Assembly (NCBI RefSeq): GCF_000185805.1
Contig: NC_014926.1
Coordinates: 1,172,501-1,236,500 of the forward strand
Direction: 5' to 3'
Length of the DNA: 64,000 nucleotides
From: Thermovibrio ammonificans HB-1
GTDB taxonomy: Bacteria > Aquificota > Aquificia > Desulfurobacteriales > Desulfurobacteriaceae
The first letter of the stretch is position 1, and every line of letters starts with the position of its first letter. Position numbers and translations under genes: made by a program. The notes under the pieces are model-generated. The model had not been told where the DNA came from, made no database searches, and saw nothing but the letters and a program-made list of their open reading frames with translations. This document shows positions 9,567 to 39,634 of the stretch, piece by piece.

Positions 9567-10269
9567 GCTACTTGCAGAGGGCGGATTCGGCACACGCTCT
9601 CAGGTAAAAAGGCTCATAAAGAAGGGACACGTTGAGGTGAACGGGGAGGTGGTGAAGGACCCCTCGTTCCAGGTAGACCCCTTAAAGGACGAAGTCACGG
9701 TAGACGGAGAGCCCGTCTACTACGAAGAGGAGTACTACCTGGTACTCAACAAGCCGGCGGGTTACGTAACCTCTACGAAAGACCGGCAGATGACCGTTAT
9801 GGAGCTGGTTGCAGATATCCCGAGGTTCGATAAGCTCTTTCCCGTAGGCAGGCTGGACAAAGACGCCGAGGGGCTGCTGCTGATGACAACAGACGGCGAG
9901 CTGGCCCACCGGCTCACCCACCCCAAGTGGAAGGTTCCCAAAACCTACGTTGTAAAGGTGGAGGGCAGGTTAACCGAAGAAGCGGTTGAGCCGCTGAGGA
10001 GGGGAATAGAGCTTAAGGACTTTAAGGCAAAACCCGCCGAGGTAAGGATTTTGAGAAGCTCTGAAGAGGAGTCGGAAGCGGAGATAACCATAACCGAAGG
10101 GAAGTTCCACCAGGTAAAGAGGATGTTCGCCGCAATAGGACACCCGGTAAAGGAGCTCAAAAGGGTGGCCTTCGGCCCTTTGAAGCTCGGGGAGCTACCT
10201 ACGGGAGAGTACAGACACCTTACCGAGGAGGAGCTTCGGGCCCTCAGAAAGGCCGTTAAGCTGGAGTGA
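9553..10269 (+). CDS. RsuA/RluB-family rRNA pseudouridine synthase (second paralogue)
   Basis: The 238-residue protein has an S4 domain (MRLDKLLAEGGFGTRSQVKRLIKKG) and the catalytic motif VGRLDKDAEGLLLMTTDGELAHRLTHP with its nucleophilic Asp; KFHQVKRMFAAIGHPVKELKR near the C terminus is typical of the RsuA branch. The GTG start overlaps the preceding membrane gene by 14 nt. With the copy at 5544-6299 the window carries two members, consistent with separate small- and large-subunit targets; the GKFHQVKRMFAA segment makes this one the better RsuA candidate. Confidence 0.9.
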   Translation: MRLDKLLAEGGFGTRSQVKRLIKKGHVEVNGEVVKDPSFQVDPLKDEVTVDGEPVYYEEEYYLVLNKPAGYVTSTKDRQMTVMELVADIPRFDKLFPVGRLDKDAEGLLLMTTDGELAHRLTHPKWKVPKTYVVKVEGRLTEEAVEPLRRGIELKDFKAKPAEVRILRSSEEESEAEITITEGKFHQVKRMFAAIGHPVKELKRVAFGPLKLGELPTGEYRHLTEEELRALRKAVKLE

Positions 10270-12923: not shown

Positions 12924-15308
12924 ATGAAGATAACCTACAACTGGCTTAAAGAGTTCATAGAGATAGACGACCTTTCCGCAAAAGAGGTTGCAGACCTCCT
13001 TACAGACGCAGGGATAGAGGTTGACGCCGTTTACAACCCTGCCGAGGAGGTTGAGAAGGTAGTTATCGGGAGAATCACAGAAATCTCCAAACACCCCAAC
13101 GCCGATAGGCTGAGAATATGCCAGGTGGACGTTGGGGATACGGTTCTCCAGATAGTAACGGGAGCCGACAACGTTTACGAAGGTGCGGTTGTTCCCGTGG
13201 CCCTACACGGGGCAAAGCTCCCCGGCGGAGTCAGGATAAAGAGGGCAAAGCTCAGGGGCGTTGTCTCTAACGGTATGCTCTGTTCGGCAGTTGAGCTGGG
13301 GCTTACCGACTCCGCACCGGGGGTGTGGACGCTCCCGGAAGAGCTGGGAGAGAAGGTCGGGGAAGATGCGGTAACCGCACTGGGGTTGAACGACTGGGTA
13401 ATAGAGTACGAGATAACAACGAACAGGCCCGACGCCCTGTCGGTTCTCGGCATAGCCAGGGAGCTCAGGGCGATGCTCGGCAGGCCCGTAAAGCTGCCCG
13501 AAACGGGCTACAGCTGCGGGGAGTTTAACGCAGAAGAGGAAGCCACCCTGAAGGTTCTCGACCAAGGGGCCTGCCCCAGGTACGAGGGCTTCGTGGTTAA
13601 GGGGATATCAAATAGGGAGAGCCCGCTCTGGATGCAGGTGAGGCTCTACCTGGTGGGCCTGAGACCCATAAACGCCGTTGTGGACGTTACAAACTACGTT
13701 ATGTACGAGCTCGGACAGCCCCTACACGCCTTCGACCTCGAGAAGCTCTCGGGCAGAGAGGTTGTAGTAAGGCGCGCAAGGGAAGGGGAGAAGATAGTTA
13801 CACTCGACGGCGTAGAGAGGGAGCTCTCTGGAGAAGACTTGGTTATAGCCGACGCGGAGAAACCCGTTGCCGTTGCGGGTGTTATGGGGGGCCTCGAGAG
13901 CGGAACGACCCTCTCTACAAGGGAGCTCTTCTTAGAGTCTGCCCACTTCGACCCGATGACCGTAAGGAGAACCTCTAAGAGGCTCGGACTCTCCACCGAC
14001 TCTTCTTACAGGTTTGAGAGGGGCGCCGACATAGAGGCGTGTAAGTTCGCCGCAGAGAGGGCGCTACACCTCATCCAGAAGCTCGTAGGCGGTGAAGTGG
14101 CAAAGGGCTCTCTTTCTTTCTACCCGAAGCCCTACACGCCGAAAGTTATAGTTTTCTCGCCGGAAAGGGCGGTAAAGCTGCTGGGGGTAAATATACCTGC
14201 AAGGAAGGCCTTCGAGATTCTCACGGGCCTGGGCTTTACGGTGAAGAAGGAGGCCGACTACATAGTTGTTAAGGTTCCCTCCTGGAGGAAGTACGACGTC
14301 ACAAGGGAGGTTGACCTCATAGAGGAGGTTGTAAGGATTTACGGCATGAAGCGGGTGGTAAGCTCCTTCCCGCTCATGCACTCTGAGGTTCCCAGAGACT
14401 TTACGTTTCTGAGAGTTCAGGAGGTTAAAGAGTTTCTGAGCTCCCTCGGTTTCAACGAGGCGATAAACTACTCCTTTATCGGGAAGAAGCTCTTTGAGAA
14501 GTTCGGCCTACCGGTTGACAGGCTCGTGAAGATTAAAAACCCCCTCTCTGAAGAGTGGGTTTACATGAGGAACTTCCTGTTCCCGAGCCTCGTAAATAAC
14601 GCCGTTAACAACATAAACAGAAACGAAAGGGACGTTTTCCTCTTTGAGGTGGCCCGCACCTTCTCGCCTACGGAGGAGGAGCTCCCAAAAGAGGAGCTCA
14701 AAGTAGCGCTCCTTGCAACAGGCGAGCTCCCCGAGAACCTGTGGCAGTTCAGAGAAGTGGACTTTTACGACATTAAGGGAGCCGTTGAGGCCCTCGGCGA
14801 GTTCCTAGGGCTGGAGCTCCAGTTCGAGAGGAGAGAGTTTCCCTTCCTCCACCCCGGCCAGAGCGGGGCGGTTAAGCTAAACGGCAAGGAGGTGGGCTTC
14901 CTCGGAAGGCTCCACCCGGACGTTGAAGAGCGGTTTGAAGTCAGACAGCCCATCTTCGTAGCGGAGCTCAACCTTGAAGAGCTTTTAAAGCAGTCGGCGG
15001 CCAGAACTGTTAAATTCAAGCCGATTCCCAAGTTCCCGCCGGTAACGAGGGACATAGCGGTAGTCGTTGACAGGAGCACCCCCGTTGCCGAAATTGAAAA
15101 GGTGATAAGGGAATCTGCCCGCTACCTCGAGAAGCTGAAGCTCTTCGACGTTTACGAAGGGAAGGGAATCCCCGAAGGCAAAAAGAGCGTAGCTTTCTCC
15201 CTCACCTTCAGGGCGAAGGAGAAAACGCTCTCCGATGAGGAAGTTAACAAAATTATGGCTGATATAATAGAGGCGCTTCAACGTAGCGGTGCTACCTTAA
15301 GGGCATAA
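12924..15308 (+). CDS. pheT: Phenylalanine-tRNA ligase beta subunit
   Basis: Partner of PheS, providing editing and tRNA binding. The 794-residue length is standard. Domains in order: EMAP-type tRNA-binding domain with HPNADRLRICQVDVG (about 40-150), B3/B4 editing domain (about 210-380), B5 domain (about 400-475), catalytic-like core (about 480-680) and C-terminal ferredoxin-fold anticodon-binding domain with PPVTRDIAVVVD (about 700-794). It is 2 nt from pheS and 9 nt from zapA, in one transcript. Confidence 0.97.
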   Translation: MKITYNWLKEFIEIDDLSAKEVADLLTDAGIEVDAVYNPAEEVEKVVIGRITEISKHPNADRLRICQVDVGDTVLQIVTGADNVYEGAVVPVALHGAKLPGGVRIKRAKLRGVVSNGMLCSAVELGLTDSAPGVWTLPEELGEKVGEDAVTALGLNDWVIEYEITTNRPDALSVLGIARELRAMLGRPVKLPETGYSCGEFNAEEEATLKVLDQGACPRYEGFVVKGISNRESPLWMQVRLYLVGLRPINAVVDVTNYVMYELGQPLHAFDLEKLSGREVVVRRAREGEKIVTLDGVERELSGEDLVIADAEKPVAVAGVMGGLESGTTLSTRELFLESAHFDPMTVRRTSKRLGLSTDSSYRFERGADIEACKFAAERALHLIQKLVGGEVAKGSLSFYPKPYTPKVIVFSPERAVKLLGVNIPARKAFEILTGLGFTVKKEADYIVVKVPSWRKYDVTREVDLIEEVVRIYGMKRVVSSFPLMHSEVPRDFTFLRVQEVKEFLSSLGFNEAINYSFIGKKLFEKFGLPVDRLVKIKNPLSEEWVYMRNFLFPSLVNNAVNNINRNERDVFLFEVARTFSPTEEELPKEELKVALLATGELPENLWQFREVDFYDIKGAVEALGEFLGLELQFERREFPFLHPGQSGAVKLNGKEVGFLGRLHPDVEERFEVRQPIFVAELNLEELLKQSAARTVKFKPIPKFPPVTRDIAVVVDRSTPVAEIEKVIRESARYLEKLKLFDVYEGKGIPEGKKSVAFSLTFRAKEKTLSDEEVNKIMADIIEALQRSGATLRA

Positions 15309-38245: not shown

Positions 38246-38525
38246 CTCCAAATATTCTGAATTTTTGCTCAAATTTATTCCTAAAACCCCACTTTTAAAT
38301 AAGTTAAAGGTAGCGCAAAAAGACCGATTTTTACACAAAATCTACCCCAGTTGAAAAGGACAAAGGGAACCATTAAAATTAGAAATAAGGTCGGTCTTTC
38401 AAAATCGAATAGGCTTTTTGTTAGGGTTATCTAACTTGTACTGGACCAAGGTCTTGGGAACCAAGAGTATGAAACTCAAGCCCAAAATGAATACCTTGGC
38501 TTGTAATAGCTATTACCCATCAAGG
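38246..38525 (+). other. CRISPR leader region (gene-free)
   Basis: About 280 nt, AT-rich, with no convincing gene. It lies on the side of the array with identical repeats, as a leader should. It contains a 9-bp inverted repeat AAAGACCGA (38319-38327) / TCGGTCTTT (38391-38399), a shorter one GTTAG/CTAAC near 38419-38434, and CCAAGGT/ACCTTGG near 38447-38498. No clear -35/-10 pair was identified. Confidence 0.6.
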
Positions 38526-39634
38526 GTTGAAATGCCCGAAAAAGTAGACGGGATTGCGACTGGACCTCTCTACGATATAGAGGTTCCACCCTTGGGAGTC
38601 TTTGTTGAAATGCCCGAAAAAGTAGACGGGATTGCGACGCAGGGAGGGTCACCTTGAAAGCTTCGGCTACTACCTTGTTGAAATGCCCGAAAAAGTAGAC
38701 GGGATTGCGACCGTGTCTGAGTACTGGGTGTTCTCCTCCCATCTTCTATCTTCATAGTTGAAATGCCCGAAAAAGTAGACGGGATTGCGACAATCTAAAA
38801 GATATGAATCAAAGGTAATAGTATAGCTACTGTTGAGTTGAAATGCCCGAAAAAGTAGACGGGATTGCGACTTTCTGCTTTCCTCACTACTCTCATTCTG
38901 CACCTCCGTTGAAATGCCCGAAAAAGTAGACGGGATTGCGACAGTCCTTTGTCTTTGAGTTGAGAGGCTACCCTGAGTAGTTGAAATGCCCGAAAAAGTA
39001 GACGGGATTGCGACTCATGTTCCACCTCCTCTTGATTTTTAGATTTCGGGAGCTAGGGTTGAAATGCCCGAAAAAGTAGACGGGATTGCGACCAAAATCC
39101 TACAACAGATAAAATTGAAATCAAACACTATCCGTTGAAATGCCCGAAAAAGTAGACGGGATTGCGACCTGGGCCTCCAAGGCTGTCCTGCCTTCGGCGG
39201 TAAAGAATCCTAGGTTGAAATGCCCGAAAAAGTAGACGGGATTGCGACGCAATCCGCGTACTGGGTGTTCTCCTCCCACCTCCGTTGAAATGCCCGAAAA
39301 AGTAGACGGGATTGCGACATCATATTGATGGGGGTAATATTCTTCTATTATTATTTCCTGTAAGTTGAAATGCCCGAAAAAGTAGACGGGATTGCGACTT
39401 TTCAACACCACTTCCTTTATTTCGGAAGTGGTGGTATCAAAGTTGAAATGCCCGAAAAAGTAGACGGGATTGTGACGATTGCGACGCCCAATATCCTACG
39501 TCGATTCCAAGAAAATCTGCCTCTCTTGTTGAAGTGCCCGAAGAAGTAGATGGGATTGTGATGTAAACCAGCCTTTTCATTTCTGTTCCTCCTTTTGTTT
39601 TATAAGTTCTCGAAAAAATAAGCGGGATTGCGAC
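38526..39634 (+). CRISPR. CRISPR array: 15 repeats of 35 bp, no adjacent cas genes
   Basis: The repeat begins GTTGAAATGCCCG, has AAAAAGTAGA in the middle and ends CGGGATTGCGAC (35 nt; short CCCG/CGGG dyad). Twelve copies are identical (starts 38526, 38604, 38677, 38757, 38837, 38908, 38980, 39058, 39134, 39214, 39284, 39364). The 13th (39442) has one change, the 14th (39528) five, and the 15th (39600-39634) is badly decayed. Spacers are 35-45 nt, except a 51-nt one near the end. The decayed end is on the right, so transcription should run left to right, and the crRNA handle would be ATTGCGAC, close to the ATTGAAAC type. No cas gene lies within the window. Confidence 0.97.

Follow-up and report, generated by a model that had tools for sequence, protein, structure and literature searches.

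Two diverged spacers in one CRISPR array of Thermovibrio ammonificans HB-1 probably derive from homologous protein-coding genes of two related mobile elements

A 64-kb stretch of DNA from Thermovibrio ammonificans HB-1 (64,000 nucleotides, referred to here as the window) was analysed. At 38526-39634 the window holds 15 repeats of 35 nt (GTTGAAATGCCCGAAAAAGTAGACGGGATTGCGAC) and 14 unique spacers of 35-51 nt, the regular arrangement of a CRISPR array. Twelve of the repeats are perfect, and the last three carry 1, 5 and 9 mismatches. The features of the region are as follows.

38395..38525, + strand, leader, conserved upstream of all three arrays in an alignment of the three leaders
38526..39634, + strand, CRISPR array of 15 repeats and 14 spacers
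38712..38756, + strand, spacer 3, 45 nt, minus-strand reading YEDRRWEENTQYSDT
38721..38741, 21-nt block in spacer 3, identical to 39258-39278
38872..38907, + strand, spacer 5, with a ribosome-binding site and ATG on the complement
39015..39057, + strand, spacer 7, with the start-site motif AGAGGAGGTGGAACATG (motif class AGGAGGTGGAA) on the complement
39249..39283, + strand, spacer 10, 35 nt, minus-strand reading RWEENTQYADC
39258..39278, 21-nt block in spacer 10, identical to 38721-38741
39563..39599, + strand, spacer 14, with a ribosome-binding site and ATG on the complement

A leader marks the end of an array at which new spacers enter. With its leader at the low coordinate and its decayed repeats at the high end, the array grows at its low-coordinate end. 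By general CRISPR biology spacer 3 would then be newer than spacer 10, and the crRNAs should carry the + strand. The crRNA of spacer 5, whose complement has a ribosome-binding site and an ATG, would be antisense to a gene start.

The genome measures 1.76 Mb in two contigs of 1,682,965 and 76,561 bases, the smaller of which we take to be the plasmid of the strain. Queries with the repeat identified three arrays. The two outside the window came from a search with repeat plus spacer; the second (C2:571094-571898, 10 spacers) has a variant repeat, and the third (C2:1493917-1494257, 4 spacers) has the same repeat as the array in the window. The same genome encodes cas genes, none of them noticed beside the array in the window: a type I-B locus (cas6, cas8b1, cas7, cas5, cas3, cas4, cas1, cas2), a second cas1-cas2 module adjoining the third array, a type III-A locus (csm1-5 and cas6) and a III-B-like locus that carries csx11 together with Cmr-type genes. 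The crRNAs of spacers 3 and 10 are probably used by type I-B complexes, type III complexes or both; their entry into type III complexes is putative. The I-B cas1 frame (L023:8721-9533) is closed by a TGA some nine codons short of where its Pfam match ends; the product may be slightly truncated, or a sequencing error may be responsible. A reverse-transcriptase domain lies at G000:C2:1393067-1393429 (L123) within an open reading frame about 917 codons long. It is the sole such domain over threshold in the 22 genomes of the family, none having been found in the 21 others, and it lies away from both cas1 loci found.

Spacers 3 and 10 have GTACTGGGTGTTCTCCTCCCA in common at positions 10-30 of each (38721-38741 and 39258-39278), which confirms the identical 21-nt block in the same register that the initial annotation described. 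Overall, 27 of 35 positions are identical (77%), with mismatches at 1, 2, 3, 4, 7, 9, 31 and 34. The longest word shared by any other two of the 28 spacers in the genome is 11 nt. Chance was rejected as the source of the similarity: when the 28 spacers were shuffled 200 times, the longest shared word averaged 9.2 nt and never exceeded 13 nt, and the pair gave a BLAST E value of 4.5e-7 in a 194-spacer set. The 21-nt match is far above chance.

The initial annotation had noted that four of the five nearest differences are spaced by multiples of three. Differences 4, 7, 31 and 34 indeed share a single codon phase, and on the + strand both spacers can be read as YWVFSSHL. The same four positions are also third codon positions in the minus-strand frame (YEDRRWEENTQYSDT and RWEENTQYADC), and the pattern by itself is compatible with either strand. 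Two codons change between the spacers on either strand, which leaves the pair by itself neutral. A codon-usage model trained on 132 ORFs of this genome preferred the minus strand for both spacers, with log-odds of about 4.1 and 2.2.

Further information on strand came from the family. The same repeat pattern is present in 14 of the 22 genomes, and harvesting the arrays with listed positions in this genome and 13 relatives gave 186 distinct spacers. The codon model scored the minus strand higher for 130 of these and the plus strand for 56. As the model was correct for 83% of known fragments, about 80% of the spacers are probably antisense to mRNA. A ribosome-binding site followed by ATG was seen on the minus strand of 13 spacers and the plus strand of 3, and 146 spacers were pyrimidine-rich vs 34 purine-rich. 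Perfect hairpins of 9-10 bp were present in 6 of the 186 spacers vs about 1% of plasmid fragments, weak statistics; these spacers (window 39399-39441; spacer B1 in L010; L074, L083 and L085) perhaps come from terminators or other structured transcripts.

A translated all-against-all comparison of the 186 spacers recovered four diverged pairs, which are listed here with their minus-strand peptides.

Pair 1: spacers 3 and 10, one array; RWEENTQY(S/A)D
Pair 2: spacer A8 (this genome) with one from the sister species G002; QKEEVVGSLG
Pair 3: two arrays of G004; KQLRRIL(S/N)DLI(K/R), minus strand only
Pair 4: one array of G010; Y(T/S)EVILE(F/Y)W, minus strand only

All four pairs are homologous on the minus strand, and those of G004 and G010 on that strand only. 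Their minus-minus scores over nine residues were 51, 44, 43 and 39; the best comparable score in 15 shuffled sets was 30-37 in 14 sets and 42 in one. Differences in the minus frame over the four pairs numbered 8, 5 and 21 at codon positions 1, 2 and 3, and residues changed in 7 of 43 codons vs 21.6 expected (per-pair P 0.005, 0.003, <0.0001 and 0.03). All four pairs are under purifying selection in the minus frame. In the sister species, two identical adjacent spacers (L068:8788-8965, G002:C18) are homologous to spacer A8 at 27 of 29 positions.

Because the codon model, the antisense bias of the family and the minus-strand homology of the diverged pairs all favour it, the coding strand of the pair is probably the complement of the array, with the peptide RWEENTQY-S/A-D. 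The initial annotation had read the pair in the forward frame (YWVFSSHL). That choice of strand is probably wrong, since the minus strand scores higher in the codon model and family spacers are mostly antisense.

Identical repeats flank both spacers within a single array, and the two begin in the same register, as they would if one were a duplicate of the other that arose within the array and then mutated or recombined. Their lengths differ (45 vs 35 nt), and the six exact spacer duplicates in the family are each 100% identical and equal in length, which argues against a mutated in-array copy. The differences between spacers 3 and 10 also track codon phase and spare the minus-frame protein, as decay within an array would not. 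We therefore give almost no credence to a duplicate, including the recombinant copy that the initial annotation had raised as an objection to its own reading.

For several spacer pairs in the family a shared start-site motif is the only resemblance, and the block in spacers 3 and 10 could similarly be a conserved non-coding motif (a promoter, origin or start site) in otherwise unrelated genes. By the pattern used, the block has no ribosome-binding site plus ATG, and it is flanked by differences of synonymous type. The core, queried as its first 20 nt from TACTGG, had no other site in the genome at up to 3 mismatches, and its in-frame degenerate pattern had no exact match in 198 other genomes. 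Such a motif is highly improbable as the source of the match.

No protospacer for spacer 3 or 10 was found in the viral, phage, plasmid or genome collections searched, and protospacers of the two in related elements were identified in none of the viral and genome contigs, relatives, phages, plasmids or the plasmid of the strain. The search that the initial annotation had suggested, with both spacers as DNA and in translation against viral and plasmid sequences, located no target; phage and plasmid records gave no match by DNA or by peptide, and no target was mapped for the pair. IMG/VR was searched with degenerate patterns for WEENTQY, EENTQY(S/A)D, RWEENTQ, DRRWEENT and the forward YWVFSSH, and no sequence retrieved reads as the same gene. 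The pattern matches there were rejected because they lay mostly in very short or closed frames, and those in frame were without the flanking residues; eight GTDB contig matches were rejected because the motif was not continued. Looser DNA searches and searches of the family at 3 mismatches gave scattered matches at background level only, and IMG/VR patterns for the peptides of the other three pairs gave nothing convincing.

Targets were located for spacers of another genus. Four to five spacers of G004 match the 76.6-kb plasmid of the strain itself at roughly 76-88% identity, at the following sites of G000:C1: L014:12026-12065, 10114-10149, 14292-14329 and 14397-14437, and L013:13204-13247. 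The individual matches are given below.

G004c_1695: 35/40 identical to an AAA+ ATPase gene, with all 13 encoded residues unchanged
G004d_418: 30/36 identical
G004d_186: 34/44 identical
G004b_1264: 31/41 identical
G004c_1385: at a gene start, 90% over 41 positions with one gap

The coding matches are antisense to ORFs on the minus strand of the plasmid. The flanks of the five matches, where a type I-B protospacer-adjacent motif would lie, end in GAG, CTC, CTC, CCC and GCC, a small sample. A spacer of G006 is related to plasmid positions 76277-76309 at the protein level. The plasmid carries genes for a TraC/TraG-type ATPase and a type II/IV secretion ATPase, and on that basis it looks conjugative. 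The motif class AGGAGGTGGAA, carried by spacer 7, has 12 copies in the plasmid and one in the window. Together with the G004 matches, the motif in spacer 7 suggests that relatives of this plasmid are among the invaders recorded by the family. A plasmid search with the leader region gave no match. Against the plasmid of the strain, spacers 3 and 10 scored no better than shuffled spacers did, and they may therefore come from a different plasmid of this kind or from a virus.

The initial annotation had considered one recurrent, drifting virus or plasmid the probable source of both spacers. Outside the block all five third codon positions differ, and the 77% identity of the pair is similar to that between relatives' spacers and the plasmid (roughly 76-88%); two related elements are the better reading. 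A pair of paralogous or repeated gene copies on a single element, taken up in one encounter or in successive ones, would look the same as orthologues in spacers 3 and 10, and the plasmid of the strain does repeat other motifs, such as the start-site motif. The homologous pair of spacer A8 and G002 is divided between two species and does not need paralogy, and the spacers of relatives show similar divergence from the plasmid. Paralogy on one element is thus unlikely.

The explanation that we consider probable is that spacers 3 and 10 were acquired independently from diverged homologues of one protein-coding gene, borne on the complementary strand by a pair of related plasmids or viruses. Separate sampling of two homologous, diverged coding targets, the central claim of the initial annotation, was upheld by the 21-nt match, the protein-level pair scores and the codon-phase differences. 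The sequence in time, which the initial annotation also claimed, is read from where the two spacers lie in the array, with the leader at the low coordinate and decayed repeats at the high end, and the order would follow from these. The cell would have met a first element and stored spacer 10, which lies farther from the leader and would be older. Later it would have encountered a related element whose copy of the gene had diverged to about 77% identity at the site, and spacer 3 would then have been stored from the same 5' boundary. Both crRNAs would be antisense to the mRNA of the target gene (peptide RWEENTQY-S/A-D).

Six of the mismatches between spacers 3 and 10 lie within the first nine positions. 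Type I complexes have their seed at the first positions of the spacer, and with six of these nine mismatched the older crRNA would probably have given no I-B protection against the variant. A further proposal, in which re-acquisition at the same 5' boundary followed the loss of the seed, the arrays of the family record a plasmid or virus clade of which little has been sequenced, with identical codons sampled repeatedly from its diverging members, and the 21-nt core is under further constraint, seems rather doubtful to us as a whole.

Several observations count against this explanation. The searches located no protospacer for either spacer, the + frame of this pair is conserved as well, and paralogues on one element would give the same picture. 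In addition, of the third codon positions compared between spacers 3 and 10 none of the seven within the block differs, whereas all five beyond it do, a clustering that plain divergence does not predict. Under random placement its P is 1/792, a post hoc value, since it was the block that drew attention to the pair. The cause could be selection bias, recombination with a breakpoint in the targets, or a second constraint acting on the core. The register of spacers 3 and 10 is exact; the other three diverged pairs are offset by 3, 6 and 10 nt.

A survey of mixed type I/III genomes found spacers biased towards pairing with mRNA; the mean coding-strand bias was 65% in type III and 55% in I-B (PMC8482600). 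Antisense bias and the presence of I-B and III effectors together in one genome agree with that survey. The bias in this family is stronger (about 80% after correction for codon-model error) and was estimated from spacers alone, mostly without mapped targets. In Marinomonas mediterranea, III-B and I-F systems cooperate against phage variants; type III backs up type I and can use spacers lost to type I by mutation of the target (PMC5576922). T. ammonificans likewise has several spacers against related invaders. The III-B system of M. mediterranea acquires spacers through an RT-Cas1, whereas no reverse-transcriptase domain was found at either cas1 here. Spacers of Aquificae match Pyrovirus genomes at 80-95% identity (PMC7689252), a comparable case of related thermophiles with spacers that match diverged relatives of known elements. 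The Pyrovirus targets are hot-spring viruses, whereas the only targets located here, none of them for spacers 3 and 10, lie on a plasmid with conjugation-type genes.

As a mechanism, the repeated uptake of spacers from related invaders belongs to ordinary CRISPR immunity; the informative part is the family-wide pattern and the link to the plasmid. Diverged spacer pairs can be recognised without a known target, and they reveal coding strand, frame and selection in mobile elements that have not been seen. The results also tie the arrays of vent bacteria to relatives of a plasmid that the strain itself carries.
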